From Actinomycetota bacterium (GTDB taxonomy: Bacteria > Actinomycetota > Acidimicrobiia > Acidimicrobiales > Ilumatobacteraceae), in contig WLJO01000021.1 in assembly GCA_009701715.1 (NCBI GenBank), forward strand, positions 1 to 41,557: 41,557 bases of DNA, given 5' to 3'. A program made the translations under genes and the position numbers. How positions within the stretch are numbered: the stretch's first letter is position 1; each line of letters begins with the position of its first letter. Below are positions 6,460 to 41,557 of this stretch, one piece after another. The notes below the pieces were generated by a model that worked only from the letters and a program-made list of their open reading frames with translations, was not told the DNA's origin and did not search any database.

Positions 6460-6576
6460 GTCTGCGGTTGCGGGCACACGACCTCGCGCCTCTCCGGTGA
6501 ACCGGTTTGGCGACCGCAGGGGGGTCGTGCGCTGGTGGATTACGGTTCGGGCGGGTGCTCGGACCGTCGACCGATG

Positions 6577-7140: not shown

Positions 7141-7142
7141 GG

Positions 7143-20879: not shown

Positions 20880-20927
20880 GGGCTCGGAGGTTACCGCTCC
20901 CCCTCGCTGGCTAGCCTGACGACACTC

Positions 20928-23449: not shown

Positions 23450-23450
23450 C

Positions 23451-24671: not shown

Positions 24672-25375
24672 GTGAGCGCTGCTTTCACGTCGTCGGACTC
24701 AATCGAACCGTCGCGCATGCTGATCTTGCGGGGCAGCGACTCCGCAAGATCACGGTCGTGCGTAACCACGAGAATCGTCCGGCCCTCAACATGGAGCTCC
24801 CGCAGGAGCTCCATCACCCCTGCGCCGGACTTCGTGTCGAGGTTTCCGGTCGGCTCGTCCGCAAGCACGATCGATGGCCGGTGAACGATCGCACGAGCAA
24901 TCGCCACTCGCTGGCGCTCGCCGCCAGACAGTTTGCTCGGGACGTGGTCGAGGCGGTTGGCAAGACCGACCCTCCCCAGTGCTTCCCTCGCGAGGTCTCG
25001 ACGCGCGCTCGGTGCGACACCCCGGTAGAGGAGTCCGTTCGCAACGTTCTCCAGCGCCGACACACCGTCGATCAAGAAGAACTGCTGGAACACGAACCCG
25101 ATCAGCTGGGAGCGGACTGCCGACAGATGACGGTCCGACAGGTGAGAGACCTCGACGCCGGCGATGCGCACCTGGCCGGTGGTTGGCCGGTCAAGGGTCC
25201 CGATGATGTGTAGCAGCGTGGACTTGCCAGAACCAGACGGCCCGACGAGCGCTGCGAGTTCTCCCTGCTCAACGCGCAGCGAGACGGCGTCGAGGGCACG
25301 CACGGGCGGTTCGCCTGCGTACTCCTTGACGACGTCGAGCAACTCAAGGGCAGGCGCGTGCTCCTCGGTGTTCAC
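24668..25375 (-). CDS. LolD/MacB-type ABC transporter ATPase
   Basis: 235 aa from a GTG at 25375, overlapping the adaptor 2 stop (GTGA). Complete nucleotide-binding domain: Walker A GPSGSGKS (45-52), Q-loop in QLIGFVFQQFF, signature LSGGERQRVAIARA, Walker B IVLADEPTGNLD and the H-loop in VVTHDRDLAE. The DEPTGNLD form and short length are typical of the LolD/MacB/FtsE subgroup. Works with the permease encoded immediately downstream. Confidence 0.93.
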   Translation of the reverse strand: MNTEEHAPALELLDVVKEYAGEPPVRALDAVSLRVEQGELAALVGPSGSGKSTLLHIIGTLDRPTTGQVRIAGVEVSHLSDRHLSAVRSQLIGFVFQQFFLIDGVSALENVANGLLYRGVAPSARRDLAREALGRVGLANRLDHVPSKLSGGERQRVAIARAIVHRPSIVLADEPTGNLDTKSGAGVMELLRELHVEGRTILVVTHDRDLAESLPRKISMRDGSIESDDVKAALT

Positions 25376-26913: not shown

Positions 26914-26915
26914 GA

Positions 26916-27641
26916 TCAGTTGGCGACGGTGGTCGTGGTGGCCGCCGCGTTCGTGATCGACGCGGTGAGCGCCGGTTGGCAAGCGGCCACGGCAGCCGTC
27001 ACCTTCGGGTCCGTCTCGTCGAGGTTCAGCTGGCGCATGAGTCTCCGGGTCGGGTTGAAACCCTGGCCGTCGCGGGGACCGGTCTCGCCGGGCGGCGGGC
27101 CGAACCCGTCACGCGGACCCTCGGTGCCACTCGCACCGTTGCCACCATTCCCGTTGCCGTTGCTGCCGGGTCGACCGAACGTGACATCCTCAACGTCGAG
27201 GCCTTGGGAACGCAGGCACGAGGTGAAGTCGTTGAAGGCTGCTTGCATCTGCTCCGGGTTGAACCGACCACCTCCCGGTCCGAGTCGTACGTTTCCGACG
27301 AGGCCCCGGCACGTCTCGATTGCCGCTCGGACGTTGTCGCTCCGAGGGTCGATTGCCCCGCCGCGCTCGAAGATCCGGCCGTCGAGATTGCCGTTTGCGT
27401 CGAACTTCGGGTCCGGCACGTCGAGACCTTCATCGCGTAGACACGAGGCGAACTTCACAATGGAGGCCTGATCGCTCAACGGTTCCGTGCTGGCGGTGGC
27501 GTCTGTGCCGGCGGGCCCCGAGGAGAGCGAGGCCACCTTGGCGGTGCTGGCGGCCGCACCGCCACAGGCGCTTAGCGCGAGAGCGAGGCCGGTTCCGAGG
27601 AGGACGAGGAGGGTGGGTCGGCGACGAGCGCGGGGTGCCAT
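26916..27641 (-). CDS. Lipoprotein with internally repeated Cys motif, first gene of the exporter operon
   Basis: 241 aa from the ATG at 27641 (MAPRARRRPTLL). Signal peptide ends in a lipobox, LSAC. The mature protein contains two related units: FASCLRDEGLDVPDPKF followed by ETCRGLV, and FTSCLRSQGLDVEDVTF followed by VAACQPAL, so each has a CLR-x-x-GLDV core and a second cysteine, probably a disulfide. A Gly/Asn-rich linker separates the second unit from its C-terminal cysteine segment. Leads the operon with the adaptors and ABC exporter; it may be an extracytoplasmic partner of the exporter. Function unknown. Confidence 0.75.
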   Translation of the reverse strand: MAPRARRRPTLLVLLGTGLALALSACGGAAASTAKVASLSSGPAGTDATASTEPLSDQASIVKFASCLRDEGLDVPDPKFDANGNLDGRIFERGGAIDPRSDNVRAAIETCRGLVGNVRLGPGGGRFNPEQMQAAFNDFTSCLRSQGLDVEDVTFGRPGSNGNGNGGNGASGTEGPRDGFGPPPGETGPRDGQGFNPTRRLMRQLNLDETDPKVTAAVAACQPALTASITNAAATTTTVAN

Positions 27642-27767
27642 GGGTGTCAGTGTGCGGCACCCGCCTTGCGTGGTGGTGCGAGGAACCTTGGGGTTTCCTG
27701 TGAAATTCGGTGGTTGCCGAAATGGCGTGACACCGGGCCGGTAGCGTGACTTCTGCAAGCAAACAAT

Positions 27768-28150
27768 GGGGCTGACAGGTTTCGACGTCAGTTTCGGTGT
27801 CCGAGCGTGCGACCCGAGTTGCTCAGACTCGAAAAACGGGGCAAAAACATAACTGCCAACACGCAGTTTGCTGTTGCTGCCTGATTTTCAGGTAACAACA
27901 GACATCGTGAGCCGCAAGGCCGCACGGGGCCAGCTCCTCGCAGCCCGGCAACAGAAGCGGGGGGTGACGGTGGGAAAGACCACTGGAGGCGTGGAAGAAC
28001 GCTGGCCGGACGGAAAGACGTCCCGGTGACCCTCTCGTAAGAGTGGGTCAGTCGACCCGCCGATGACGCGCCGTCGCGTCGAAGTCGGGAATGGTCGTAT
28101 CACGGGCGGTTCCCGCCTGGCGGACGGGGGTTCGATTCCCCCCAGCTCCA
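27768..28150 (+). ncRNA. ssrA: Transfer-messenger RNA (tmRNA)
   Basis: 383-nt one-piece tmRNA. The 5' end GGGGCTGACAGGTTTCGAC and 3' end TTCGATTCCCCCCAGCTCCA are the canonical termini: GGGGCT pairs with AGCTCC, A at 28150 is the discriminator, and the T-stem is GGGGG-TTCGATT-CCCCC. The next three bases are CGA, so CCA is not encoded and must be added. The mRNA-like part starts at the GCC at 27855 and ends at the TGA at 27882-27884. The 126-nt gap 27642-27767 should hold the promoters of ssrA and of the divergent lipoprotein operon; I see no clear consensus boxes. Confidence 0.95.
27855..27884 (+). other. tmRNA tag-peptide reading frame
   Basis: GCC AAC ACG CAG TTT GCT GTT GCT GCC TGA, encoding ANTQFAVAA. 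It is preceded by CATAACT, comparable to the nucleotides that set the resume codon in other tmRNAs. The -AVAA end is a Clp-type degron variant of the usual -ALAA. At nine codons it is shorter than most. Confidence 0.8.
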
Positions 28151-28226
28151 CGAAGGGATGTTCCCGGAATAGCCGGGTGGCATTTCCGAAATACTTTGGT
28201 CAGTCCGGCTCTTCGGAGCCGGGCTG
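28148..28226 (+). repeat. 79-bp direct repeat, copy 1, at the tmRNA 3' end
   Basis: Starts with the last three bases of the tmRNA (CCA) and runs to 28226. It is identical base for base to 29226-29304; after a single mismatch, five more bases agree. It contains two hairpins, CCCGG-AATAG-CCGGG and a stem with UUCG loop (28205-28222). It may be an att site of an element integrated at ssrA, or a small structured repeat. The 86 nt from 28227 to 28312 hold no other feature. Confidence 0.9.
28205..28222 (+). terminator. UUCG-loop hairpin downstream of ssrA
   Basis: CCGGCTC-TTCG-GAGCCGG: 7-bp GC-rich stem with the very stable TTCG tetraloop, about 55 nt after the tmRNA end. No T-run follows, so it may be a processing or pausing signal instead of a strict intrinsic terminator. 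The same hairpin recurs at 29283-29300. Confidence 0.5.
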
Positions 28227-28312
28227 CACCGAGGCTTGGTCCGCGCTGCAAAGCATGGTGAGGATTCGGACCATGGTCGAAGCGGCAGCGCCGGTGGACG
28301 ACATACCATCTT

Positions 28313-28912
28313 GTGGTGGACATCTTGAACCGCATACTGCCTTGGGATGGCTGGGGCGGCCGGATCATGGCGACAGTGATGGCAACTGGCAACGCGGACA
28401 TGGAGATCGCAGCGGTCGAGTTGGTGAACCCGAGACCTGACGCCAATGTCGTGATGATCGGTTGCGGACCAGGTGTCGGTGTGGTCGCAGCTGCCCGTCG
28501 CGCGCCGAACGGCAGTGTGATCGGTCTCGACCCATCGGCGGTAATGGTCGAGCGGACCCGCACTCGGTGTCGCCGGGCTCGACTCGAGCACCTCACGAGG
28601 GTCGAGCGGGCTGCAGCAGAGTCGCTCCCCCTAACAGATCGTTCACAGGATGCAGTCGTCAGTGTCAACAACATCCAACTGTGGAGTGACCGGTCGGTCG
28701 GTCTCGACGAATGTGTTCGCGTCCTCGCTCCCGGCGGTGTTGTGGTCGTGCTCCTACACACGTGGGCCATCCCGAACGCCTTGCCCAATGACGAGTGGGT
28801 CACACAGTTGAGCGCAGACCTGTCGGCCCGTGACGTGCGGGTCGAGCCGCCGCAGACCCGACGCTTTCGATCCGGACCTGCCATGGTGCTCCTCGGACGG
28901 ATGGCGGAGTGA
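28313..28912 (+). CDS. Class I SAM-dependent methyltransferase
   Basis: 199 aa from a GTG at 28313. Rossmann-type methyltransferase: motif I VVMIGCGPGVGVVAAA, motif II acidic residue in VIGLDPSAVMVERT, post-motif ESLPLTDRSQDAVVSVNNIQLW (motif IV region) and the Methyltransf_11 ending RVLAPGGVVVVLL. Substrate unknown; small-molecule C- or O-methylation is usual for this group. It is the only gene between the two 79-bp repeats, so it may be the cargo of a small insertion next to ssrA. Confidence 0.82.
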   Translation: MVDILNRILPWDGWGGRIMATVMATGNADMEIAAVELVNPRPDANVVMIGCGPGVGVVAAARRAPNGSVIGLDPSAVMVERTRTRCRRARLEHLTRVERAAAESLPLTDRSQDAVVSVNNIQLWSDRSVGLDECVRVLAPGGVVVVLLHTWAIPNALPNDEWVTQLSADLSARDVRVEPPQTRRFRSGPAMVLLGRMAE

Positions 28913-29225
28913 TTGCTCCGCCGTGTGCCCCTGATGGCCGCCTGGAACCAGCCCCCACGATCTGAACCGCAATCGCGCCGACGTCCCTGAGTCACTCAAT
29001 CGTCAATTCGGAGTGATGCGACGCTCTCCTGGGGCTGCCCGCACGCGGAGCCAGGCCAAGCAGCGTTCGTCTCACCGCCGGTCAGCACCTCGAACCAGGC
29101 GATGCGGACACGATCCCGTTGGCTGGCGGACCGTGTGAAATCTCATGCACCGATGTGTGAAGCCGCCCCACCCGTCAATGCGTCGAACCACCTCTGTCCT
29201 GCGGAAACTGAATTGTGGGAACGCC
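28913..29225. other. Gap without recognisable gene
   Basis: 313 nt between the methyltransferase stop and repeat copy 2. Short open frames exist on both strands, but none shows a plausible start, composition or similarity. The further stretch 29305-29477, before the toxin gene, also holds nothing I can support. Confidence 0.6.
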
Positions 29226-29304
29226 CCACGAAGGGATGTTCCCGGAATAGCCGGGTGGCATTTCCGAAATACTTTGGTCAGTCCGGCTCTTCGGAGCCGG
29301 GCTG
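29226..29304 (+). repeat. 79-bp direct repeat, copy 2
   Basis: Exact copy of 28148-28226, 1078 bp further on and in the same orientation, including both hairpins. The sequence immediately left of it does not resemble the tmRNA acceptor/T-arm, so the shared part begins at CCACGA. Confidence 0.9.
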
Positions 29305-29477
29305 AACCGAAGTCTGAGCCTCACCCCAAGCATGCGGCGAGGCGAGACCGTCCGGGAAACTTCCTCCTTGCTCGCCGCAACGACTTCATCACGGACACTG
29401 TGGATTGAGGTCGGCGGCGGCTCCACGTTCAACGTCGGTGGTAGCGCATCTCGGCAGATACGCGCGCGACCTGTCTC

Positions 29478-29888
29478 TCAGACGGAGACGACTTCGACGA
29501 GGTTGTTAAGGGCGAGGAAGTCATCTGGATTGCGGGTGTAGAGCGGAAGCCCGACTGAACACGCAGTCGCTGCGAGCAGTAGGTCGACGGCTCGCGCTCC
29601 GGGCGCTTTCCTGCCGCCTGCAACAACGGCGGCGTAAACACGACCATACGCCCGTGAGGCCTCGGAGTCGAACGGCAACGGGTCGAAGGCTGCCTCGGCG
29701 CGCTGAAGCCGGTCTTGCCGTCGAGCCCGCTCGTTGGGGTCCTGAGTCGCATGAGGACCCGCAGCGAGCTCGGCCATCGTGATCGCGCTAATCGCCGACT
29801 CGATCGGGAGATCTGCAGGGTCGAGGCGTTCGAGGTCGATGATGACCGAGGTGTCGAGCAAACCCCGAGGCCGGCGTTGGTCAGCCAC
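29478..29888 (-). CDS. vapC: VapC-like PIN-domain toxin
   Basis: 136 aa from a GTG at 29888, overlapping the antitoxin gene by 8 nt. PIN ribonuclease acidic residues are in place: Asp in LLDTSVIIDL (about 12), Glu in TMAELAAG (about 39), Asp in ARAVDLLLAATA and the late TRNPDDF. VapC toxins cut tRNA or rRNA to arrest growth. Order antitoxin-toxin and overlap are typical for type II systems. Located in the accessory segment behind ssrA. Confidence 0.88.
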   Translation of the reverse strand: MADQRRPRGLLDTSVIIDLERLDPADLPIESAISAITMAELAAGPHATQDPNERARRQDRLQRAEAAFDPLPFDSEASRAYGRVYAAVVAGGRKAPGARAVDLLLAATACSVGLPLYTRNPDDFLALNNLVEVVSV

Positions 29889-30135
29889 GAGGCGCCGCGT
29901 CCTGGTCCGCTATGTCGTCAAGGTCGGCGCGGAACCGGTCAGCGTCGACGGTTGGCGCGTTGCGGAACATCGCGAAGACGGCGTCGGTGGACACGAAGCG
30001 ATGACGGCGCATCGGAGTCAGCTCTCCGACGGGTGTCCCGTTGCGGGTGACGATGAAGGTCTCTCCCTGATCAAGGCGGCGCATGATCTCACCGCTGTCG
30101 TTGCGAAGCTCGCGCTGTGTGATTACTTGTGCCAT
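29881..30135 (-). CDS. vapB: Phd/YefM-family antitoxin (VapB role)
   Basis: 84 aa from the ATG at 30135 (MAQVITQRELRNDSGEIMRRL), the typical Phd/YefM N-terminal DNA-binding fold with GETFIVTRNGTPVGEL. The C-terminal tail (about 50-84), rich in Asp and Arg, should wrap the PIN toxin. It represses its own operon through the palindrome 9 bp upstream. A longer frame upstream crosses the operator and is not coding. Confidence 0.88.
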   Translation of the reverse strand: MAQVITQRELRNDSGEIMRRLDQGETFIVTRNGTPVGELTPMRRHRFVSTDAVFAMFRNAPTVDADRFRADLDDIADQDAAPRG

Positions 30136-30144
30136 ACCCACAAC

Positions 30145-30161
30145 GTAGCACGGCGTGCTAC
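30145..30161. promoter_or_regulatory. Operator palindrome of the vapBC operon
   Basis: GTAGCACG-G-CGTGCTAC: 17 bp, perfect 8-bp arms around one base, 9 bp upstream of the antitoxin ATG. Position and symmetry fit the autorepression site of a type II antitoxin; it would overlap the promoter or transcript start. Confidence 0.7.
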
Positions 30162-30301
30162 ACCCGGAAACCTCCCAGCGCCTATCGGCAGTTCGGCGCG
30201 GGTCGGTCAAACTGGACCGATGGAACGACCACTCATGCGTGTCTCGGGTCCAACCCTCGTTTGCCGACAACCCTCTGACTACGATCCGTTCAGGAGGTCC
30301 A

Positions 30302-31054
30302 GTGGCGACGAATCAGAATGCGTCAGGTGACATCGATCGGGCTCCAGGCCGGCAGCAACAAGTGCTCGTGGTTACCGGACACGTTCCGCGAGCATTTCCA
30401 TCTCGCCACTTGTCCTACGAGCAATTTCGTTCTCTTGGTGATCAACTGAAAAGTGCTGCGGTTGGTCGAATCGTTGCTTTCGACGAAGAGCGGTCCGTCA
30501 ACGATCTTTGGGCGTATCACCTGCTTGAAGCGAATCCGAATCTGATGCCCGCTGATCCCAATCCGCCGTCAGATCGATTCGATGGACCGGCCGATGCGGT
30601 GATCTCAAACATTGTTTGTCACGAGCGATTCGAGTGGGTGCGCCGAGCTGCCGAGTTGCACCCCGACGTCGATGTCTTCGTGTGGATTGATTATTCGGTC
30701 TTCAAGCAACCAGGGGTAACAGCCGAGGTCATTCGTGACTATCTCAATGCGATCGAAACCACTGCAAGCGATGCTGTGATCGCTCCAGGGGTGTGGCCGA
30801 AGGTGGCAATCAATGATTCGCGCCCACATTGGCGATTCGTCGGTTCGACGTGGATTTGTCCTCGCGACCTCGTTGCTCCGCTCGCCGATCTTGCGAATCA
30901 TGTGCTTCACATTCGAACAACTCACACGGGAAAAATCACGTGGGACGTAAATACGCTGTCCTATGTTGAGCTTCTCGATGTTCTGCCGTTTCGGTGGTAC
31001 CTCGGCAACCATGACCAAACACAATTCACTGGATTCGTCGAGTTGTCTCTCTGA
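30302..31054 (+). CDS. HtrL/YibB-like putative glycosyltransferase
   Basis: 250 aa from a GTG at 30302, just behind AGGAGG (30292-30297), which decides against the longer frame. Pattern: VLVVTGHVPRAFPSR at the N-terminus, VFVWIDYSVFKQPG (about 125-138; a D in the place of a sugar-nucleotide metal motif), and a C-terminal KITWDVNTLSYVELL followed by RWYLGNHDQTQFTGF, which resembles HtrL/YibB and some capsule glycosyltransferases. The match is by eye and partial. Base composition is clearly more AT-rich than the core genes (27 of 60 G/C in 30421-30480), which suggests recent transfer. Confidence 0.5.
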   Translation: MATNQNASGDIDRAPGRQQQVLVVTGHVPRAFPSRHLSYEQFRSLGDQLKSAAVGRIVAFDEERSVNDLWAYHLLEANPNLMPADPNPPSDRFDGPADAVISNIVCHERFEWVRRAAELHPDVDVFVWIDYSVFKQPGVTAEVIRDYLNAIETTASDAVIAPGVWPKVAINDSRPHWRFVGSTWICPRDLVAPLADLANHVLHIRTTHTGKITWDVNTLSYVELLDVLPFRWYLGNHDQTQFTGFVELSL

Positions 31055-31204
31055 CAGTCGATGTCATGTCGGGTGGCCATCAACGCTTGTGGTTTTTCGA
31101 CTTACCTGCGAGCTGGCGGGGCAAAGGAAATGTCGAGTGAGCGCAGGTACGTCTCCAAACCGGCATCTTGGATCGGAATAATCCGGCCCGGTCGTAGGCC
31201 GGAA

Positions 31205-31218
31205 TTTCCCGCGGGAAA
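31205..31218. repeat. TTTCCCGCGGGAAA palindrome, copy 1
   Basis: Perfect 14-bp palindrome in the 264-nt gap before the DUF222 gene. It lies in the open upstream extension of that frame, where it reads FPAG. Also found at 32324-32337 and 41152-41165. Confidence 0.85.
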
Positions 31219-31318
31219 ACTGGACCGATCGCTGTTGACGCTTGCAAGGCCCGAGAATCCCCTACGCACAAGGGGTTTTCGATCTTTCTGTGTCACACCC
31301 CTCGGTCACGATGGGTAC

Positions 31319-32509
31319 ATGGATCTGACCGCTGTCCCCACCGAATACCTCGAGGCCGAACTGGTCTCCCACGCTGCGTTCGAAGCAACCGGAATGGCGC
31401 GCATGCTGGACGTCCTCGCCGAGTTCGACCGGCGCCGCGTCTGGGATTCGTGGGGCTGCGCATCGCCGCAGCAGTGGCTCGGCTGGAAGTGTGGTCTTGC
31501 GTACGGCGCCGCATCCGAGCGGCTGCGGGTAGCACGGGCGCTCAACGGATTGCCGGCAATCCGAGAGGGTCTTTCCAGCGGGAAACTCTCCTACTCCAAG
31601 GTCCGTGAGCTCACCCGTGTTGCAACCCCCGATACCGATGATTCCCTCGCCACCATCGCTGGCTGCGCCACCGCTGCACAGGTCGCCATGATCGTGCGGT
31701 CGCTGCGCAAGCGCACCCCGAAAGACGTCGCCCGTCAGGTCGATTCCCGAGGTCTGCGGTGGGCGGTCGATGAAGAGGACGGGTCGATGGTGTTCACGCT
31801 GCGCCTGCCCACCGAGACCGGCCAGGCCGTCGCCGCAGCACTACAGGTCGTCACGCAGGTAGAGGCGGGAGTTCCCGCCCACCAGTCCCGAGCAGACGCC
31901 TGTGTCGCTTTGATCTGCGGTGACGACGAGGTTCGCGCACGCCCCGAGGTCATCGTCCATCTCCACGCCGACACCGCTGCCTTCGAAGACTCGACTGCGG
32001 TCGCCCCCGAGATCGTCGAGTGCCTCGCCTGCGACGGCGCCGTCACCACGGTGGCCGACACCCCGGTCGGGCCGATCACCATCAAGAAGGACCCCCCGCC
32101 GTCTCGCACACAGCGCCGCTGGCTGAAACTCCGTCACCGAACCTGCCAGTTCCCCGGCTGCCACCACACCGGTTCGTTCGACGCGCACCACGTCGTGCAC
32201 CGCGGCCAGGGCGGCAAGACCCGGCTCAGCAACATGGTGCGCATCTGTCAGTTCCACCACCGGTTGGTGCACATCCTCGACCTCCGGCTCACGCTGCACC
32301 CGGACCGCCGGCTCGACGTGACATTTCCCGCGGGAAATCCGATCGACCGCAGCATTCCGTACTCGCCGTTCGTCGCACCAGTCCCTGCAGACCCGAACCT
32401 CATCAGCAGCACGTGGAGCGGCGAACGCCTCCAACTCGACTATGTCCACCTCGCCGTCACGAGCATCGGGCACTACACGGCGAACCCACGAGCAGCAGTC
32501 GCGGCCTGA
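31319..32509 (+). CDS. DUF222 / HNH endonuclease-like protein (13E12 family)
   Basis: 396 aa from the ATG at 31319; the frame is open from 31061, but MDLTAVPTEYLEAELVSHAAFEATG is the usual DUF222 start. An N-terminal helical DUF222 domain (about 20-280) is followed by an HNH nuclease module: CQFPGCHHTGSFDAHHVV with the Cys pair and His-His, Asn in TRLSNMVRIC, and HHRLVH. These proteins are multicopy in actinobacteria; some accompany mobile DNA, but their function is not established. The 16-bp palindrome 32323-32338 lies within the coding sequence. Confidence 0.88.
   Translation: MDLTAVPTEYLEAELVSHAAFEATGMARMLDVLAEFDRRRVWDSWGCASPQQWLGWKCGLAYGAASERLRVARALNGLPAIREGLSSGKLSYSKVRELTRVATPDTDDSLATIAGCATAAQVAMIVRSLRKRTPKDVARQVDSRGLRWAVDEEDGSMVFTLRLPTETGQAVAAALQVVTQVEAGVPAHQSRADACVALICGDDEVRARPEVIVHLHADTAAFEDSTAVAPEIVECLACDGAVTTVADTPVGPITIKKDPPPSRTQRRWLKLRHRTCQFPGCHHTGSFDAHHVVHRGQGGKTRLSNMVRICQFHHRLVHILDLRLTLHPDRRLDVTFPAGNPIDRSIPYSPFVAPVPADPNLISSTWSGERLQLDYVHLAVTSIGHYTANPRAAVAA
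32323..32338. repeat. ATTTCCCGCGGGAAAT palindrome, copy 2
   Basis: 16-bp perfect palindrome inside the DUF222 gene, coding FPAGN near its C-terminus, after the HNH module. Confidence 0.85.
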
Positions 32510-32540
32510 TCGCGGTCAGGCCGGTACCTCAGACGGCGAA

Positions 32541-32583
32541 ACCACCGCCGCACGACGCCGCAAACCCGCCGCCCAGTAACACC
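32541..32583 (+). pseudogene. Fossil 3' end of a delta-60-type surface protein gene
   Basis: 43 nt that differ from 35621-35663 at only two positions. Read in the same frame it gives TTAARRRKPAAQ and a TAA stop (32577-32579), against TTVARRRKPAAQ at the end of the delta-60 gene. Nothing upstream of it resembles the rest of that gene. It lies in the 99-nt gap between the DUF222 gene and the 555-aa gene and looks like what remains of a second copy after deletion, or one arm of a recombination event. Confidence 0.75.
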
Positions 32584-32608
32584 GGGGCGGCCCTGAGCCA
32601 CCCTTGCG

Positions 32609-34276
32609 TTACACCGTCGTTCGGAGGTGTTCCTCACGTGCGGCGAGGGCCGATGCGGCGGTAACGAGCCACTCGGATCGCTCGATACCGCTCGGGTCGG
32701 TGGGTCGACCGCTCGCCTCGCGGTGGTGCTGCTGCGCAATGTCGTACGGCTCGACAGTCCCCGCATCGAAATACTTGGGCTGCTTGGTGTGACGCCCCTG
32801 ACCGCCTGCGTTGATGGTGCACACGGCGCGTCCCTCGCTCAGTCGGTACTGCGGCAGCAGGCCGCGCTCCCAGATCACCTCATCGACTCGGGTCACGAAC
32901 CAATAGACCGGGATACCCACCGTTGCCTCGGCGCCACCATCAGGATGGGTGACCGCTCGGGAGGCTGCGGGGAACCGCTTGGTGACCCACGCATGGCTCG
33001 CCACCCGCGCCACGCCCGAGATCGTCGCTCGGCGGCGATAGGTGTGGTCATCGGAGACCACGAGTGCGGAACGGCGGTTTGTCCAGAGCTTCGCGGCGTG
33101 GCCGTGAATCGCATTCCCTGGGTGATACGGGATAAGCACATACTTGCGCCCTCGTCGCATCCCGATGAGGGCCGCACCACCGATCTGGCCGTTGCGCGGC
33201 GAGGCGCCCGGTAGTCCGCTCGAGTCCACGGTGACCTGCAGCGACTCGAACTGTGCGGCGAGCAACTGCTCGAGGGACACCGGCGCTTCGGTGGCAACCT
33301 CGGGAGGGGCCTCAGCAGCCACGTCGGCTGGCTCGGAGACAAGTTCTTTGACGAACAGGTTCTGCGAGCACTGGGTGAAAACCTCTTCAGTTCCACCGAC
33401 CAGATACCCGAGCATTGCGTTCTCTGCATGCGCGTACGCCCGGTGACTCTCGAGGTCGGAGTCCACAAGGCCGTAGTCGCGCACGAGTTGCTCCGGCCGG
33501 ACGCCTTCGACACCGAAGAGCGTGATGTGGAGGCCCATGGCGTCGGGATCCCGCTGGTGCAGCGCAAGGAGCGCAAGGTTGCCGGTGGCACGGACTGCGT
33601 CCACGAGCGCAACAACGCTGCCGGTGTGGTCGCGCAGCAGCGTTTGACCGATACCGGGCTCGCTGGCCTGCTCCTCGCCACGCAAGACATCGGCGAGACG
33701 ATCTGGCAGTGCCGCCCCCTCGAACATCCACTGCTCGACCGCGAGATCGCTGCCCGGGTGGCCGGTTCGCGGGAGGTACACGGCAACGGCCACCGCGCCA
33801 TCGTTGAGGACCAGGATCGGTCGAATACCCGTTTCGCCGTGGCGCGGCAGCATGGCTGCGTGACACTCGCGGTGCCTCCCCCACAGGACGCCTCGAGCGG
33901 TGGAGCCACTTGCCGCGAGCACCTGCGTCGCCGTTGCGGCGAACGCTCCCATCACCGCGCTGCACCGGGGCCGGTACTGAGAACGGTAGAAGAAATCGGC
34001 TTGCCCGACATGGACGGGTTTGCGCGGGCCCCGGGGCTCACCGTCGGGTCGGATGGCATCGCCCGGGTCGTCGGCCCGTCGGCGCGCGAGGGTGCCACTG
34101 ACGAGGTATTGCTGCACGTGCTCTCCCGCAGGGCCCGGCTGACCGGGCCGGCGCAGGTGTTTCTCGGCAAGGTGACCGCACAGCGCCGGGGGCAGGGCGG
34201 CAAACAGACCGAGCAGCCGGAGCCGCCGCGACGTCAATTGATAAGCCCAATGCCCAGTTGATGGCTTCGTTGTCAT
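32609..34276 (-). CDS. Unrecognised 555-aa protein
   Basis: 555 aa from the ATG at 34276 (MTTKPSTGHWAYQL); two in-frame Met codons lie slightly upstream. I do not recognise the family. Visible features: a basic, Arg/Pro-rich first about 100 residues, a mixed alpha/beta central part with hydrophobic strands (RPILVLNDGAVAVAVYL, GLHITLFGVEGV), an Ala/Pro/Glu-rich linker (about 310-340, PADVAAEAPPEVATEAPVSL) and a conserved-looking C-terminal part with RRGRKYVLIPYHPGNAIHGHAAKL. No signal peptide or membrane helix. It is long, consistently coding-like, and divergent from the delta-60 gene. Its position between the delta-60 fossil and the delta-60 gene puts it in the accessory region. Confidence 0.65.
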   Translation of the reverse strand: MTTKPSTGHWAYQLTSRRLRLLGLFAALPPALCGHLAEKHLRRPGQPGPAGEHVQQYLVSGTLARRRADDPGDAIRPDGEPRGPRKPVHVGQADFFYRSQYRPRCSAVMGAFAATATQVLAASGSTARGVLWGRHRECHAAMLPRHGETGIRPILVLNDGAVAVAVYLPRTGHPGSDLAVEQWMFEGAALPDRLADVLRGEEQASEPGIGQTLLRDHTGSVVALVDAVRATGNLALLALHQRDPDAMGLHITLFGVEGVRPEQLVRDYGLVDSDLESHRAYAHAENAMLGYLVGGTEEVFTQCSQNLFVKELVSEPADVAAEAPPEVATEAPVSLEQLLAAQFESLQVTVDSSGLPGASPRNGQIGGAALIGMRRGRKYVLIPYHPGNAIHGHAAKLWTNRRSALVVSDDHTYRRRATISGVARVASHAWVTKRFPAASRAVTHPDGGAEATVGIPVYWFVTRVDEVIWERGLLPQYRLSEGRAVCTINAGGQGRHTKQPKYFDAGTVEPYDIAQQHHREASGRPTDPSGIERSEWLVTAASALAAREEHLRTTV

Positions 34277-34501
34277 GCTGCGCATTCTCCCACCCGGACT
34301 ATTGGACAGGCGGTACAAACCGCTGCGATCGCCACAATCTTCGAACACGCGCAGGTGAAGGGATTCGTAGATCCGGCGCTCGGAAGCAACTCCGGTTGGC
34401 GCGTCCCAGGCATTTTGACCACCGCGTGAGTGTGTACGCTCAAGTCAGCTTCGCTGGTGTTGATCCCCTCCCGGTCGAGCCTGATCGAAGGGCCACAGCA
34501 C

Positions 34502-35659
34502 ATGATCCGCCACAGCACGAAACGTCTCTGCGCCGCCCTTGGTGCCGCACTGGTTGCCGTGTGCGGCACCACCCTGCTCACCGCCACGCCCGGCACCGCA
34601 CAGACCGTCGCCGACGGCAGCATCGACACCACCTTCACCCCACCCACCCTCAACGGCGAAGTTTTTTCGGTGGCGGTGCAGGCTGAAGGCAAAGTCCTCG
34701 TCGGAGGTGACATCAACGGGAAGATCAAACGCCTCTCTGCCGACGGCAGCATCGACACCACCTTCACCCCACCCGCCCTGAGCAACTACTATCCCGTTCG
34801 CTCGGTCCTGGTGCAGGCCGACGACTTGATACTGGTAGGCGGCTCGTTCACCGGGAAGATCAAACGGCTCAACACTGACGGCACGAACGACACCAGCTTC
34901 ACCCCACCCGTCCTTAACGGCGAAGTTTTTTCGATGGCGTTGCAGGCCGACGGTAAGATCCTCACCGGCGCACTTGGCGAAATTCGGCGGCTCAATGCCA
35001 ACGGCACGAACGACACCAACTTCACCCCACCCGCCCTCAACAATTACGTGCTTTCGATTGTTGTGCAGGCTGACCGCAAGATCCTCGTAGGCGGCGACTT
35101 CACCGGACGCGTTAAACGTCTCAATGCCGACGGCACGAACGACCCCAACTTCACCCCACCCGTCCTCAACCAAGCGGTGTACTCGGTTGCGCTTCAAGCC
35201 GACGGCAAGATCATCGTCGGCCACGTCAACGGCACCGTCCGGCGCCTCAATGCCGACGGCACGAACGACACCAACTTCACCCCACCCACCCTCACCGCAC
35301 GGGTGTTGTCAATTGCGTTGCAGGCTGACGGCAAGATTCTGCTTGGTGGAGAGTTCACTGGATATGTCACGCGCCTCAATGCCGACGGCACGAACGACAC
35401 CAACTTCACTCCACCCACCCTCACCAACCGAGTGTCGTCGATTGCGTTGCAGGCTGACGGCAAGATTCTGCTTGGCGGCTACTTCGCCGGATATGTCAAG
35501 CGCCTCAATAACGCCCTGCCGACACCGCCCAACGCTGGCACGATCCTGGGCGGTGGCGGCAGCAACAACGCCGTGTGGATCATCGTGATCGCCGCAGCAG
35601 GCCTCGTTGTCGCCGGCGGCACCACCGTCGCACGCCGCCGCAAACCCGCCGCCCAGTAA
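34502..35659 (+). CDS. Secreted delta-60 repeat beta-propeller, membrane-anchored
   Basis: 385 aa from the ATG at 34502 (MIRHSTKRLCAALGAALVAV), chosen because it opens a signal peptide (cleavage near GTAQT). Seven tandem units of about 40-45 aa follow, each with the form FTPPxL...SxALQADGKILxGGxFTGxxxRLNADGTND, the delta-60 (TIGR02608) pattern, so a seven-bladed propeller is likely. The end is a Gly/Asn-rich linker, a TM helix (WIIVIAAAGLVVAGGTTV) and RRRKPAAQ, with no LPxTG. Probably a surface protein. The 225-nt gap before it (34277-34501) should hold its promoter and that of the divergent 555-aa gene. Confidence 0.85.
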   Translation: MIRHSTKRLCAALGAALVAVCGTTLLTATPGTAQTVADGSIDTTFTPPTLNGEVFSVAVQAEGKVLVGGDINGKIKRLSADGSIDTTFTPPALSNYYPVRSVLVQADDLILVGGSFTGKIKRLNTDGTNDTSFTPPVLNGEVFSMALQADGKILTGALGEIRRLNANGTNDTNFTPPALNNYVLSIVVQADRKILVGGDFTGRVKRLNADGTNDPNFTPPVLNQAVYSVALQADGKIIVGHVNGTVRRLNADGTNDTNFTPPTLTARVLSIALQADGKILLGGEFTGYVTRLNADGTNDTNFTPPTLTNRVSSIALQADGKILLGGYFAGYVKRLNNALPTPPNAGTILGGGGSNNAVWIIVIAAAGLVVAGGTTVARRRKPAAQ

Positions 35660-35663
35660 CACC
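35621..35663 (+). repeat. Parent copy of the 43-bp repeat (3' end of delta-60 gene)
   Basis: Encodes the final TTVARRRKPAAQ and TAA stop plus four bases; near-identical to 32541-32583, 3080 bp upstream in the same orientation. The two copies bracket the 555-aa gene and nearly all of the delta-60 gene. The 171 nt from 35660 to 35830 hold no gene I can support. Confidence 0.8.
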
Positions 35664-35830
35664 TCGGTCCCGACGTTCGTCGAATCAGCAGGCACGCGGG
35701 AGCTTTCGAGCCCGAATGCCCTGGGGAGGGCGAGGTGGACGGGACGATCAGCGCCTACGCGATCGGCGCCAAGGCGACCTGAGGCACAGAAGCGAGTTCG
35801 GGAGGCCACCATCGGTCAGAATTGTTGACA

Positions 35831-38800
35831 GTGCTGCCTGACTCACACGTGCCCAATGGAGCGACGTTCGCAACCGGCTTCCAGCGATCAGTTGCGCTCG
35901 CGTCGCTGGCAGGCCGCGAAGTGCCGATCTTCGTCGAGCAATTCGTCCTCGAATGTCCGGTTGACTACGGCGCCACCGCGTTCCAAACAGCCTGGGCTGC
36001 GGTGCTCAAGCGCCACCCAGGCCTGTCGGCCCAGTACGACTTCTCGGGCGCCCGGCTCGTCTACCGCCAGCTCCCCGCCTGGGACGGAATCCGGTCGTTC
36101 GAGACGGCAAACGTTCCGACCGCCACCGAGGCCGAGGCCGAACGAGTATGCGCTGACCAGTACCGCGCCTTCAGCATTGGCAGCGACGAGCCGCTGTGGC
36201 GGGTCGCGACGATCGACGTCGCAGGCACCTGGTGGCTCTGCGTCACCTTGCACCATCTGATCTTCGACGATCGTTCTTGGCAGATTATTCGCCGGGACTT
36301 CGCGGAGGCGCTGCGAAACCCCGGCAGCGTCGCACCTCCCCCGAGCGCCTTCGTGGACTTCCTCGCCAGGAGAGCCACGTACGTTGGTATCGATGGGGCG
36401 AACCGGGACCGCGCGGTGTCGGAATGGAAGAATCTCGCCGACGGGCTTGAGGGACCGACTGCACTGCCCTCGCTTGCACCATTCGCCGACCACCCAGGTG
36501 GGCACCTGGGCAACCGCCGCTTCCCTGTAACCCTCCGCTCGGGGTTCCCCGAACGTCTCCGGGAGTTACTGCACGATCGGAGCCTCACTGCCAACAGCGT
36601 CGGACTCGCTGCATGGGCCCTCGTGTTGAGCCGGCTCTGCCGTACCGATGTCGTCTGTTTCGGGCAGACCCGTCATGGGGTTCCCGCCGAACTCGCAGAT
36701 GCTGCCTCGATTGTCGGACCGATGGTTGACACGTTGCCCTTCGTCGTTCCGGTCGCTGACGACGTGAGCGTTAACGATTTCCTCGCCGACGTGGCCTTGC
36801 GCCATCGGAGGATGTACTCCCTCCAGCCACTCGAGGTGTCCGAGCTCCTCGCCGGCGCCTTCGCTCCGGGAACCGACGACGTGATGTCGACAGTCGTCAA
36901 CCACGTCCGAGACGCTGACGGCTTCAACGACCCAGCCAGCGACCTGCCCATCGTGCGTCAGCGCAAGAGCGCGGCGCTCCAACCGACGTTGACTGTGCTT
37001 GAGGGCGAGCAAGTCCGCTTCGAGATCGTGACGTCCACCCGGCACGCCGAGTTCGGACGTGTGGCTGCTTCAGCGCTCGGGTCCGTCCTTACCCAGATCG
37101 TCGAGCAGCCTCTGGTGTTGGCCGACATCTCGATGACGAGCCAACAGGGAGACCAACGCGCCGAGTTGCGCGGCCCGTCGAGACAGTTCGGCGCAACATC
37201 ACTAGCGGAGTTACTCGAGACCTCCCTGCGCGCGAACGCTGAACGCGCAGCACTGGACGGGAAGGAGCGGCTCACCTACGCCGAACTGGACCTCGCATCA
37301 CGCTCCCTCGCTCACAACATCGGCCTGACGGCCCGAACGGAACAGGCCTGCGTGGCCGTTGTTGCCCCACCCGGCAAGCACGCCGTGATCGCCGTCGTGG
37401 CCGCCATCCGCTCCGGCCACTCGTTCGTGTGTATCGACCCGGCCCGGCCGCCGGCCGAGATACAGATCCTTCTGGACCTCATCGGTCCCGATGTCGTAAT
37501 CGACGCCGCCGCGCAGGATGCCGTCGGGGTCCCACCACCAGGACCCGAACCGCAGCCGCGACGCGCCCGCCCCGACGACCTCGCCTATCTCGTCGCCACC
37601 TCCGGCTCGACGGGAGTGCCCAAGGTGGTGGAAATCGAGCAAGCCTCCGCAGTGAACGCGATCTGCTCGCTCATCGAGACGTACGGCATGACGCCGGACG
37701 ACCGTCGCCTGCGGAGTGTGTCGCGGCCCGGTGCAGACGTGTTCATCGCCGAACTGTTGGTGCCGTTGTGCTCTGGCGCCACCCTTGTTGAGGCGATCGG
37801 GGACCGGCCGCTCGCACCCGCGCAGTTCTTCTCGCTGCTCGACCGGGAGCAAATCACGATTGCCGGGGCTGCCAGCTCGTACCTTGCAGAACTCGTCGAG
37901 TCCCGGGTGGACAGGGGCGCAGTGCCAGCACCGCTCACGCTACGCATGATGACCACCGGCACGGAAGCGGTCGACCCGAACATGGTCGCCACGTGGAAGC
38001 GGGCGTTCGACGGGAGTATCACACTCCTGAACGTGTACGGACCCGCAGAGGCCACGCTGGTTACGACGACGTGCCGCTTGAGCGAGCTGACCGTGCCGAT
38101 CGTCGGCACCGTGCCGATCGGGCTACCGCTCCCCAACACCACGGTGATGCTGCTCGACCGTGCCGGCCATCCCGTGCCGATGGGTGCCGTTGGTGAGATC
38201 TGTGTAGCCGGTCCCGGTGTGATGCGTGGCTATTGCGGCCTCGAGACCTCGACAATCGTGCCAGCCAACCCGGCACATTCTGCCGAGCGTTACTACCGGA
38301 CTGGCGACCTCGGACGCATCGGAGCCGACGGTCAGTTGGTGTTCGGAGGCCGGAGCGACCGTCAGGTGAAGATTCGCGGCCACCGAGTTGAGCTCGACGG
38401 CGTGGAGGCCCGACTCCGCGCGGCCACCGGTGGTTCCACTGTGGCCGCAGTAGTTGCCCAACGCGCCGGCCGCTTGGTCCTCTTTGCGGCCGTTGAGTCC
38501 GACGGTCCGGTAGACGATGTCGGGATTCGCTCGCGCATGGCAGCCGGCGGCAGCCCCGCCGAGGTACCCGCCGCCGTGGTGGGCATGGCCCGTTTGCCGC
38601 GACTTGCGAACGGGAAACTTGACCGCAGAACGATCGCCGCAGAGATCGCTGCATCGCTGTCGAGCACCTCCCCGGCAACAACCCGAGCGCTCACCGATGA
38701 GCTTCCAAGCGGCCCGGCTGCGTTCGAGCTATCGGCGATGCTTGCCCTGTGGAACGAGCTGTTCGAGGTGAACGACTGTCACGCGCTCTCGGATTTCTTC

Positions 38801-39721
38801 GACTTGGGTGGCGACTCGTTGCTCGCCATACGACTCGCGGCCGAGGTGGACGTTCGCTTCGACCTCGCGATGGACCTCGATCTGCTGTATGGGCTACGCC
38901 GGCCGGGTCCCTTGGTGTCAGCTATACAGGAGCGAATCCTCAGTCTCGCTCAGCACCAGGTGATCCGTCCGATCAACGTGAGCGGACGAGATGCACGGGT
39001 GTATTTTATGCACGGCGCCCACGGCGAGACGCACCAGTGGTCCTCGATCGCAGCGCGCCTCGCTGATGACTTCGACAGTTGGGGAATCGCGGGGCGTGTT
39101 GCCCACAGCAAACCCGTTTCCGCCTCGGTTGCGGAGGCTTGCGCTCAGTACTCCCAGGCTCTTGTTCAACACTGCCTCGGTGAGGAACTCGTGATTGTTG
39201 GGTTTTCGGCGTCTGGTGTGCTCGCCTACGAAACCGCTCGGCTCGCGCGTGCGGCGGGACTGCCGGTGCGCGGCATTGTCCTTCTGGAGACGGTGCCGCC
39301 TGATTTGCCGCGAGCGGTCCGATGGCTTGCGACTGCGTCGATGATACGACGACGACGCTCCACCGTGGCTGCAGCCGTGTGGATTGTGCGCAGCGCAAGG
39401 CACGCTGGGTTAGGGGCCTTCAGGCCGAGACGTCGGCGCAATCAGGTTCCGGTCGCGAAACGAACCAATGTTCCGTTTATCGACTTTGTCGAGGGCCACC
39501 GCATCAAACGGGACAGGCTCCGGGTGACTTCGGTCGGTACACGTGACGCCGTGGTTCTACTTGATCTGCGCCTTGTATGGGGCTACATCACCGGTCGCCG
39601 AGTGACTGGGCCCGTGCTCAACCTCCCTATGCACATTCAACTCCTCGACGAAGATCGCGCCCCAGAGGTAGCAGCAATCATCCGCGAGTTCGCTCATCAC
39701 CAGAGTGGGGACAGGCAATGA
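35831..39721 (+). CDS. Single-module nonribosomal peptide synthetase, C-A-T-TE
   Basis: About 1296 aa from a GTG at 35831 (TTG at 35822 or 35825 are alternatives; no clear Shine-Dalgarno decides). Condensation domain about 15-430 with HHLIFDD for HHxxxDG. Adenylation about 450-940: A3 TSGSTGVPKVVE (about 588), A4 core ADVFIAEL (Asp235 equivalent kept), A5 NVYGPAEAT, A7 YRTGDLGR, A8 GRSDRQVKIRGHRVEL, A10 NGKLDRR. Thiolation DFFDLGGDSLLAIRL (about 990, Ser for phosphopantetheine). Thioesterase from about 1040: GFSASG (about 1124) with a candidate His near 1267; the acidic triad position reads Glu (VLLETVPP). By-eye specificity code, GrsA order: D V A G M T V L V K; I cannot assign a substrate. 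A leading C domain implies an acyl or peptidyl donor from elsewhere. ATGA overlap with a methyltransferase. Confidence 0.93.
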   Translation: MLPDSHVPNGATFATGFQRSVALASLAGREVPIFVEQFVLECPVDYGATAFQTAWAAVLKRHPGLSAQYDFSGARLVYRQLPAWDGIRSFETANVPTATEAEAERVCADQYRAFSIGSDEPLWRVATIDVAGTWWLCVTLHHLIFDDRSWQIIRRDFAEALRNPGSVAPPPSAFVDFLARRATYVGIDGANRDRAVSEWKNLADGLEGPTALPSLAPFADHPGGHLGNRRFPVTLRSGFPERLRELLHDRSLTANSVGLAAWALVLSRLCRTDVVCFGQTRHGVPAELADAASIVGPMVDTLPFVVPVADDVSVNDFLADVALRHRRMYSLQPLEVSELLAGAFAPGTDDVMSTVVNHVRDADGFNDPASDLPIVRQRKSAALQPTLTVLEGEQVRFEIVTSTRHAEFGRVAASALGSVLTQIVEQPLVLADISMTSQQGDQRAELRGPSRQFGATSLAELLETSLRANAERAALDGKERLTYAELDLASRSLAHNIGLTARTEQACVAVVAPPGKHAVIAVVAAIRSGHSFVCIDPARPPAEIQILLDLIGPDVVIDAAAQDAVGVPPPGPEPQPRRARPDDLAYLVATSGSTGVPKVVEIEQASAVNAICSLIETYGMTPDDRRLRSVSRPGADVFIAELLVPLCSGATLVEAIGDRPLAPAQFFSLLDREQITIAGAASSYLAELVESRVDRGAVPAPLTLRMMTTGTEAVDPNMVATWKRAFDGSITLLNVYGPAEATLVTTTCRLSELTVPIVGTVPIGLPLPNTTVMLLDRAGHPVPMGAVGEICVAGPGVMRGYCGLETSTIVPANPAHSAERYYRTGDLGRIGADGQLVFGGRSDRQVKIRGHRVELDGVEARLRAATGGSTVAAVVAQRAGRLVLFAAVESDGPVDDVGIRSRMAAGGSPAEVPAAVVGMARLPRLANGKLDRRTIAAEIAASLSSTSPATTRALTDELPSGPAAFELSAMLALWNELFEVNDCHALSDFFDLGGDSLLAIRLAAEVDVRFDLAMDLDLLYGLRRPGPLVSAIQERILSLAQHQVIRPINVSGRDARVYFMHGAHGETHQWSSIAARLADDFDSWGIAGRVAHSKPVSASVAEACAQYSQALVQHCLGEELVIVGFSASGVLAYETARLARAAGLPVRGIVLLETVPPDLPRAVRWLATASMIRRRRSTVAAAVWIVRSARHAGLGAFRPRRRRNQVPVAKRTNVPFIDFVEGHRIKRDRLRVTSVGTRDAVVLLDLRLVWGYITGRRVTGPVLNLPMHIQLLDEDRAPEVAAIIREFAHHQSGDRQ

Positions 39722-40545
39722 GATCACCCTTCGATCCGGGCCCAGGCGACGAGGCCGGGGCCGTGCAGCGGATCTACGCGCAGCAAACACCACCGCTGCT
39801 CCCATCGTCGGCAGATCTGGCCGCGCACGAAGCCGCGCTGGCGCTCGGCAGCACCCCGCTCAACGTCCTCATGCTCGGGGTGACGCCCGCCGTCTATCGC
39901 TTGCCATGGCCGCCCCACTCGGCGATTCAAGCCGTCGACCGGTCGCTGCCGATGATCCAGCACGTATGGCCCGGACCCGTCGGCTCTGCGCAGGTCGGCG
40001 ACTGGACTCACCTGCCGTTCCCTGCCGAGCGCTTCGACCGTGTCATCTCCGATGGCGGCATGTTGTTTTTGGGACCGGCCTCGATCGACGAGCTGAGAAC
40101 CGAGGTTGCCAGGGTGCTCCGACCCGACGGGTTGTTCGTCACCCGCGTGTACGTCTGGAACCAGAGCGAGACGCTCGATCGGCTCATCGACGACGTAGAG
40201 CGCGGTGCACTCAGCACAGCGAACGAGATGCGCATCCGCTCCTGGTCGGCCCTGCAGACCTCGCTTGATGTCGGCATCCCACTCAGCACAGCGTTCGACG
40301 AACTCTTGGTCCGGATGGGATCTATCGAGAATCTCGTGGAGCGATCTGGCCTCGCTGCGGAACAGTTCGTGCCATTTCTTGCAACCGCTGGATCGACACT
40401 GCGGTACACCATGTGGCCGACCCACGACATCATCGCCGCCTGGACTAGCCACGGTGATTTCGAGCACGTGAGCACCACGATTCCTGGGCACCAACTCGGG
40501 AGCCTGTGCCCCGTTCTCGCGTTTCGGCGGAGAGGTCCAGCCTGA
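39718..40545 (+). CDS. SAM-dependent methyltransferase coupled to the NRPS
   Basis: 275 aa, ATG at 39718 overlapping the NRPS stop (ATGA), so translated together with it. Class I fold: strand 1 NVLMLGVTPAVYRLPW, where the usual GxGxG is replaced by GVTPAVY as in some methyltransferase subgroups; then QAVDRSLPMI (acidic residue), GDWTHLPFPAERFDRVISDGG and RVLRPDGLFVTRVYVW. The C-terminal half (about 150-275) is a longer cap that probably binds the substrate. It most likely methylates the NRPS product or its precursor; the site is unknown. Confidence 0.82.
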   Translation: MRSPFDPGPGDEAGAVQRIYAQQTPPLLPSSADLAAHEAALALGSTPLNVLMLGVTPAVYRLPWPPHSAIQAVDRSLPMIQHVWPGPVGSAQVGDWTHLPFPAERFDRVISDGGMLFLGPASIDELRTEVARVLRPDGLFVTRVYVWNQSETLDRLIDDVERGALSTANEMRIRSWSALQTSLDVGIPLSTAFDELLVRMGSIENLVERSGLAAEQFVPFLATAGSTLRYTMWPTHDIIAAWTSHGDFEHVSTTIPGHQLGSLCPVLAFRRRGPA

Positions 40546-40566: not shown

Positions 40567-40971
40567 TCAGCCGGCCTTGCTCGGCTTTTCCCCCACCGGA
40601 CCGTCGGCCTGCTTCCATGCGGTGAAGCCGCCCTCCACGTGCGCGACATTCGTCATCCCCATGTCGACGAGCGTCTTGGCGGAGAGCGCACTGCGCCAGC
40701 CACTCGCACAGTAGAGAACGAACTGCCGGTCCTCGGCGAAGATCGGCTTGTGATACGGGCTCGCCGGGTCCACCCAGAACTCGAGCATGCCGCGCGTGGC
40801 GTGGAACGCACCGGGCACCATGCCGTCACGCTCCAGTTCACGCGGATCGCGCAGGTCCACGAACGTCACGCCGTCCTCGCCGAGCATCGCGATGGCCTCG
40901 GCAGTCGGCACCGTGCGTACGGCCTCGTTTGCCTCGGCGAGCAGTTCCTTGATTCCCTTGGTGACCGGCAT
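40567..40971 (-). CDS. Rhodanese-like sulfurtransferase
   Basis: 134 aa from the ATG at 40971 (MPVTKGIKELLAEANEAV). Single rhodanese domain: VDLRDPRELERDGMVPGAFHA, active-site loop LYCASGWRSALSAKTL with the catalytic Cys, and HVEGGFTAWKQADGPV. The loop CASGWRS fits a sulfurtransferase rather than a phosphatase-like form. A GTG at 41010 is an alternative start. It converges with the methyltransferase (21 nt) and diverges from the serine hydrolase. Confidence 0.9.
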   Translation of the reverse strand: MPVTKGIKELLAEANEAVRTVPTAEAIAMLGEDGVTFVDLRDPRELERDGMVPGAFHATRGMLEFWVDPASPYHKPIFAEDRQFVLYCASGWRSALSAKTLVDMGMTNVAHVEGGFTAWKQADGPVGEKPSKAG

Positions 40972-41022
40972 GTGCAGATCGTAGGCCGAGCGGGCCCTTT
41001 GACGCTCCACTAATCTCCGCGC

Positions 41023-41557
41023 ATGTCCGAGGCCGCCTCACCGCTCGTTGCCATCAACCTCTTCTCCGGCCAACCGCAGCACGAGAACTTCAACCGCCTG
41101 CACCACATCCTCCCGAGCAGCCGGCTAACCGCAAGCCGCGCCCCCCACCGATTTCCCGCGGGAAATTCCGTCGGGCTTCCTGCCTCGTTCGACGTTGGCG
41201 GCAAGCAGGTGGACACCGAGCACTTCCTCGACCTCACCGACACCGCAGCGCTGCTCGTGCTCCACGACGGCAAGGTGGTGCACGAGCAGTACCGGCTCAC
41301 GGGCGGGCCGAACGTCCAGTGGATCTCATGGTCGGTTGCCAAGAGCTTCACCGCCGCACTCGTCGGCATCGCGGTGGAGCAGGGACACATCCGGTCGATC
41401 GAGGAGCCGATCAGCAACTACATCGACACTGCTCCCGGCTCGGCATACGAGGGCACGCGCATCAAGGACATCCTGCAGATGTCGTCCGGTGCCCGCTGGA
41501 ACGAGGACTACAGCGACCCCGACTCCGACATCGTGCGCCTCGGGCACGCGATGAGCA
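41023..41557 (+). CDS. Beta-lactamase-fold serine hydrolase, 5' part cut by window edge
   Basis: 178 codons are present, from the ATG at 41023 to the right edge. The SxxK motif SVAK (Ser104, Lys107) in SWSVAKSFTAALVGIAVEQG, followed by IEEPISNYI and the ILQMSSGARWNEDY stretch, marks the class C beta-lactamase/esterase family (Beta-lactamase PF00144); the YxN motif and the late HxG lie outside the window. No signal peptide is obvious. Substrate unknown; such enzymes are esterases, peptidases or amidases. The palindrome at 41151-41166 lies in its coding sequence and reads FPAGN. Confidence 0.85.
   Translation, partial: MSEAASPLVAINLFSGQPQHENFNRLHHILPSSRLTASRAPHRFPAGNSVGLPASFDVGGKQVDTEHFLDLTDTAALLVLHDGKVVHEQYRLTGGPNVQWISWSVAKSFTAALVGIAVEQGHIRSIEEPISNYIDTAPGSAYEGTRIKDILQMSSGARWNEDYSDPDSDIVRLGHAMS
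41151..41166. repeat. ATTTCCCGCGGGAAAT palindrome, copy 3
   Basis: Same 16-bp perfect palindrome as at 32323-32338, inside the serine hydrolase gene in the frame reading FPAGN, in a segment before the catalytic domain that looks poorly conserved. Confidence 0.85.

Follow-up and report, generated by a model that had tools for sequence, protein, structure and literature searches.

A two-gene nonribosomal peptide synthetase-methyltransferase pair at the far end of an ssrA-adjoining variable region in a member of the Ilumatobacteraceae

The contig analyzed here, a 41,557-bp stretch that we refer to in its entirety as the window, carries a pair of genes encoding a one-module nonribosomal peptide synthetase (NRPS) and a class I methyltransferase. 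We consider the chances about even that this pair is a discrete, lineage-specific cassette, probably acquired horizontally, in a variable region adjoining the tmRNA gene ssrA, and that it specifies a complete one-module synthetase and a methyltransferase working as proposed below. The product would most likely be a small N-acylated amino acid derivative methylated by the partner enzyme, with enzyme activity and acyl donor both being predictions. This type of layout is known; what is new is the delimitation to two genes, the ssrA-linked location and the list of altered residues. The two genes and the domains of the synthetase are as follows.

35822 to 39721, forward strand: one-module NRPS, condensation-adenylation-carrier-thioesterase (C-A-T-TE), 1299 aa, TTG start; GTG at 35831 is an alternative start (1296 aa)
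35867 to 37171 (approximate limits), forward strand: condensation (C) domain, HHLIFDD at 36251-36271
37202 to 38656 (approximate limits), forward strand: adenylation (A) domain, binding-pocket code read as DVAGTGVLVK
38729 to 38926 (approximate limits), forward strand: carrier (T) domain, phosphopantetheine Ser 999 in GGDSL
38984 to 39706 (approximate limits), forward strand: thioesterase (TE) domain, putative triad Ser 1129 (GFSASG), Glu 1156 and His 1271
39718 to 40545, forward strand: class I methyltransferase, 275 aa, start overlapping the NRPS stop (ATGA), non-canonical motif I VLMLGVTPAV

The synthetase frame (35822-39721) runs through 1299 codons without an internal stop or frameshift. 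Pfam matches to all four domains, each over Pfam's cut-off, lie in order on the single chain: Condensation at residues 31-342 (E 5e-28), AMP-binding at residues 466-804 (E 6e-55), PP-binding at residues 974-1032 (E 2e-8) and Thioesterase at residues 1060-1161 (E 2e-8). GC content by codon position was of the coding type for both genes, and single-sequence structure models of the two proteins were poor (mean pLDDT 39.9 and 42.4). An earlier note on this DNA had described a lone C-A-T-TE synthetase, and the intact frame, the four ordered domains and the fact that this is the sole C-domain match of the genome bear that description out; the interval given there, 35831-40545, differs from a start at 35822 only through the choice of start codon.

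The C domain retains HHxxxD (H144, H145 and D149), but aspartate replaces the glycine that follows, giving HHxxxDD, and other motif residues are also altered. The canonical HHxxxDG motif is described as essential in the relevant passages of a review (PMC8949500). In addition, valine (V287) replaces an arginine conserved in 96% of the other domains compared. This arginine pairs with the motif aspartate in solved C domains; a literature search on it found no paper. A lost active site, which the earlier note had said would change its picture, is therefore not what we found in HHxxxD itself, and the exchanges of Gly for Asp and Arg for Val amount to a partial loss around it. When we compared conserved columns across 49 domains, having omitted 19 of the 68 tree rows that were of the E type or had at most 380 residues, the window domain matched 21 of its 43 filled columns, out of 48 conserved at at least 70%, which was the lowest share of the set. 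It also formed the longest end branch of the 68-row tree (2.18 versus a median of 0.48) and joined no supported group, so that the phylogeny suggested by the earlier note as a means of separating starter from LCL domains reached no class. The tree was built by a quick method from rows that include no domain with an experimentally known acyl-CoA starter function, and its type labels were taken from domain order rather than known products, some of them wrongly; one domain labeled E (L077_m_8883_934) groups among condensation domains. Among the rows in which the motif was found, HHxxxDD is shared by one other domain, L077_m_2654_328. The nearest solved C domains by sequence are those of PvdL (E 3e-21).

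The A domain is better preserved in its core, with 48 of 60 columns conserved at at least 85% retained (eighth lowest of 70 rows) and with both the mapped amino-binding Asp and the Lys of NGKLDR present. Because the amino-binding Asp is kept, an alpha-amino acid is probably loaded. We mapped the binding pocket by an alignment anchored on EntF, in which the EntF residues read DVWHFSLVDK, in agreement with the code of that A domain. The window domain reads DVAGTGVLVK, and the alignment chosen decides whether positions 299 and 301 are M and T or T and G; a hand reading, DVASMTVLVK, was ruled out by the anchored alignment. On the specificity that the earlier note wished to see predicted, this code has no clear match, and we assign no amino acid to it. 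By sequence, the nearest solved A domains are those of linear gramicidin synthase (E 4e-85). Five of nine conserved columns are retained in the T domain, which ranks third lowest of 62, and 7 of 11 in the TE domain, the lowest of 16. In the TE, GxSxS (GFSAS) stands instead of GxSxG and Glu 1156 occupies the usual Asp position, while Ser and His are kept; glutamate instead of aspartate is also readable in the aligned TE of PDB 7r0x.

These departures could mean that the synthetase is decaying or partly dead, with a C domain, and perhaps a TE, that no longer condenses, so that the protein would at most load and release an amino acid, or do nothing. We regard this as possible but doubtful. The low conserved share, long branch, V287 and HHxxxDD of the C domain, the altered TE and the poorly conserved T domain all point toward decay, as do the failure to find an Sfp-type transferase in the genome and the lack of an ortholog among the sampled genomes. 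However, the frame is uninterrupted and coding-type in its GC distribution; HHxxxD, the carrier Ser, the Ser/His pair of the TE and the greater part of the A-domain core are retained; and two of the exchanges recur elsewhere, HHxxxDD in L077_m_2654_328 and Glu for Asp in 7r0x. Either the pair is functional and divergent, from a lineage of which no relative has been sampled, or it is drifting; the intact frames favor the former and the missing Sfp-type transferase the latter.

The methyltransferase matches Methyltransf_11 (E 3e-7) and Methyltransf_25 (E 6e-6), both over Pfam's cut-off, and is thus of class I. It lacks a recognizable glycine-rich SAM motif I, as the Pfam match starts only at position 21 of the 95 in the model; VLMLGVTPAV is found there, within residues 48-60. 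For comparison, the methyltransferases encoded at 28313-28912 of the window and in the congener G001 match the Pfam model from positions 3 and 1. A motif expression for VLMLGVTPAV matched no other compared locus, save one unrelated frame in the window. The translational coupling proposed in the earlier note is plausible: the methyltransferase ATG does overlap the NRPS stop codon in ATGA. Protein searches for orthologs returned only the genome itself among 120 relatives (E 1e-10) and among 395 genomes of the class (E 1e-8), and only the genome itself and G798 among 396 genomes of the phylum (E 1e-8); these search sets overlap with one another and with a set of 397 genomes of the order, in which partial matches at E 1e-4 occurred in 50 genomes, including its own. 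We rejected the G798 protein, an ordinary methyltransferase with a canonical motif that matches at 41% over just 81 residues, and likewise the G001 methyltransferase, in which 34% over 92 residues reflects family likeness only. Plasmids gave no match at E 1e-3 and 18 records at E up to 5, phages gave 6 at E up to 5, and a scan of genome and viral contigs with six exact 8-residue patterns, an insensitive method, gave none. The closest solved structures matched at E 0.001.

The host genome (2.8 Mb, 97.35% complete, in 96 contigs) contains one condensation-domain match, that of the window NRPS itself, and no modular polyketide synthase or modular ketosynthase was found in it at that completeness. 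There are seven matches to the PF00109 ketosynthase model, one of them strong, in a 460-aa ORF right after a small carrier ORF on contig C47, and six short and weak. The seven PP-binding matches comprise the window NRPS, two adjacent A-T-TE proteins on C2, another A-T-TE protein on C36, a carrier on C11 and small ORFs on C29 and C47. On C11, the carrier is separate from, and preceded by, a stand-alone A domain of the amino acid type (code DLHFLCLIAK, with the amino-binding Asp). AMP-binding matches number 36 and may include enzymes that make acyl-CoAs, which, like the C11 pair, would be candidate sources of a donor; none lies on C29 or C47. The one phosphopantetheinyl transferase (ACPS) match, on C65 (L032), reads as AcpS-type, and we found none of the Sfp type in the genome. 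Several NRPS-type carriers thus stand against a sole transferase match that is AcpS-type by reading.

Based on this inventory, we propose the following route. The carrier would be primed by the sole phosphopantetheinyl transferase found, the AcpS-type enzyme, and the A domain would activate an alpha-amino acid and load it onto the carrier. The C domain would then acylate the amino group, drawing on general metabolism for the acyl thioester; since no upstream module was found in the genome, acyl-CoA or acyl-ACP would be the simplest donor. The TE would release the N-acyl amino acid, and the methyltransferase would O- or N-methylate the product at the carboxylate, a side chain or the amide.

A different donor, which we consider quite unlikely, would be another amino acid that the C11 A domain and its free carrier provide in trans, giving a dipeptide or diketopiperazine-like product that is then methylated. 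This A domain does carry the amino-binding Asp, no AMP-binding match accompanies the other two carriers outside NRPS-type chains on contigs C29 and C47, and in L095 a free A domain and carrier adjoin an NRPS. Yet C11 is a separate contig, nothing was seen that links the two loci, and free A domain and carrier pairs can serve other pathways.

The A-T-TE proteins of the same genome, encoded in tandem at 6129-8897 and 8955-11426 of L026 (C2) and at 6413-9031 of L027 (C36), resemble the window NRPS in being small, carrier-bound and TE-ending, but have no C domain. The tandem pair is followed by a phytanoyl-CoA-dioxygenase-like gene. Unlike in the window NRPS, the amino-binding position of their A domains seems not to be Asp, in a poorly aligned region, and they may activate other acids.

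Among characterized systems, the synthetase resembles by description, not by sequence, FrsA of FR900359 biosynthesis, a stand-alone C-A-T-TE enzyme that makes an N-acylated amino acid and whose starter C domain takes propionyl-CoA, according to the relevant passages of the report (PMC7794379). As described there, FrsA yields only traces of acylated leucine before the amino acid is hydroxylated and depends on an MbtH-like partner, and the TE joins what FrsA makes, by transesterification, to the product of a second NRPS (PMC7794379). Neither a hydroxylase nor an MbtH-like partner was seen here, where a methyltransferase is present instead, and there is no partner NRPS. EntF (enterobactin, Escherichia coli K-12) likewise has C-A-T-TE in a single chain, but the A-domain codes of the two proteins differ (DVWHFSLVDK versus DVAGTGVLVK), and the EntF C domain falls in a nine-row group of N-terminal domains (support 97) outside which the window domain lies, its placement being unsure given the long branch. 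No aryl-acid or hydroxamate genes were seen among the 20 window ORFs scanned. Two further one-module C-A-T-TE genes, each about 30% identical to the window gene, were found in the order among 20 regions fetched: L084 (5320-9204, genome G020, same family), followed by an Fe-S (CCG) protein gene, and L076 (3345-7244, genome G089, same order), near a lysine/ornithine N-monooxygenase gene and with a C domain that belongs to the EntF group.

We found no ortholog of the synthetase in the genomes sampled. Among 120 relatives, 35 genomes matched at E 1e-20, including its own, the best other at 223 bits and 28% identity; among 396 phylum genomes, 5 matched at E 1e-72, including its own. The best of these, G130 (30% over 988 residues), was rejected as an ortholog, being a C-A-T protein that apparently belongs to a multigene NRPS locus. 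Plasmid matches were below 60% identity, and six exact 8-residue patterns, again an insensitive scan, found nothing in viral and genome contigs. Highly divergent biosynthetic clusters are reported from the actinobacterial class Acidimicrobiia in the relevant passages of one study (PMC8692599). Our literature search came upon no such NRPS-methyltransferase pair by name, a negative of little weight. The synteny comparison suggested by the earlier note identified no ortholog of either gene in the genomes sampled, but did show that G001 lacks the pair between matching flanks. Contig C18 of G001 matches the window at 20492-28169 (76%), 35729-35782 (91%, 54 bp, the end of a truncated methyltransferase gene) and 40567-41557 (89%), which delimits the following features.

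35681 to 35782, forward strand: 3' remnant of a methyltransferase gene (last 33 codons and stop), whole in G001 (L070, 15749-16588)
35783 to 40566, no strand: segment missing from G001, 4784 bp versus 6 bp there, holding only the NRPS and methyltransferase genes
40567 to 41010, reverse strand: rhodanese gene of the right flank, G001 protein 94% identical

The extra segment starts 39 bp upstream of the first start codon and ends 21 bp past the last stop. As the matching flanks are only 6 bp apart in G001, the pair appears to be a discrete unit, and the junctions could be assembly artifacts. The window is an entire contig that ends at 41557, and the right side is therefore readable only through G001, in which rhodanese and serine hydrolase genes directly adjoin the site. 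The additional NRPS or PKS genes beyond the right edge that, in the words of the earlier note, would have altered its picture are thus not what follows the site in G001, and its minimal self-contained two-gene unit is upheld by this comparison and by the lack of another C domain or modular ketosynthase in the genome. That the pair is the tail or a fragment of a larger cluster missing from the assembly is very improbable: the contig does end 1 kb past the pair, and the assembly, in 96 contigs, reaches 97.35% completeness, but the G001 right flank and the segment edges, so close to the two genes, argue against it.

Inside the 4.8-kb unit we saw no ORF for a regulator, a transporter or an MbtH-like protein. 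The earlier note had extended this statement to the whole window, which does not hold for transporters: an ABC transporter and an FtsX/MacB-like permease are encoded at 23451-25375, in a stretch common to the window and G001. MbtH was sought by a sequence motif in the window, in five loci of the same genome and in L093, and was found in L093 alone, whose record lists an MbtH protein.

The variable region starts at ssrA, the 3' end of which is a classical integration site, and the cassette lies at the opposite end of the region.

27768 to 28151, forward strand: tmRNA (ssrA) gene; homology to G001 stops just past it, at 28169
28148 to 28226, forward strand: 79-bp exact direct repeat, first copy, starting at the tmRNA CCA end
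29226 to 29304, forward strand: 79-bp repeat, second copy; about 1 kb between the copies, with a small methyltransferase ORF (28313-28912)

The alignment of the window with G001 shows nothing in common between 28169 and the 54-bp piece. Over 28170-35680, the window encodes a PIN-domain/Phd-type toxin-antitoxin-like pair, a DUF222 protein that weakly matches HNH and a beta-propeller protein; the counterpart region of G001 encodes an RCC1/fibronectin-type protein and the whole methyltransferase. An ORF at 30155-31054 is low in GC and has no Pfam match. The 79-bp repeat brackets only 28148-29304, not the NRPS gene, and could be an att-like duplication or an assembly artifact. Of the 24 ORFs listed in the variable region, 7 were scanned and showed no integrase; for this reason, and because the repeat does not bracket the NRPS gene, we do not call the region a mobile island.

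Codon usage scores of the NRPS and methyltransferase genes (-1.155 and -1.18) lie at the low edge of, or just beyond, the range spanned by 13 reference genes from this contig (-1.155 to -0.745), whereas the right-hand neighbors are typical (-0.88 and -0.86); the least typical part is the last sixth of the NRPS gene, in the TE (-1.38). These values fit a foreign origin of the pair without proving it. Since no relative examined carries the pair, a gain in this lineage is favored over a loss in G001, a comparison of two genomes that cannot by itself be polarized; four more distant rhodanese loci show neither neighbor in their short flanks, and no rhodanese was matched in G002, a third member of the genus. 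We also put forward, as an unlikely reading, that an unclassified C domain (HHxxxDD, without the Arg) and a methyltransferase whose SAM site has been rebuilt act jointly on a carrier-bound substrate, as a compact pair that has moved as a unit at ssrA-linked regions.

If active, the pair would make a small modified amino acid with just two genes, in a genome in which no other C domain was found, and a single heterologous expression could yield the product. Such a pair would also be a test of how much divergence from the consensus a C domain and a methyltransferase can bear without losing function, and of whether an NRPS can make do with an AcpS-type transferase.
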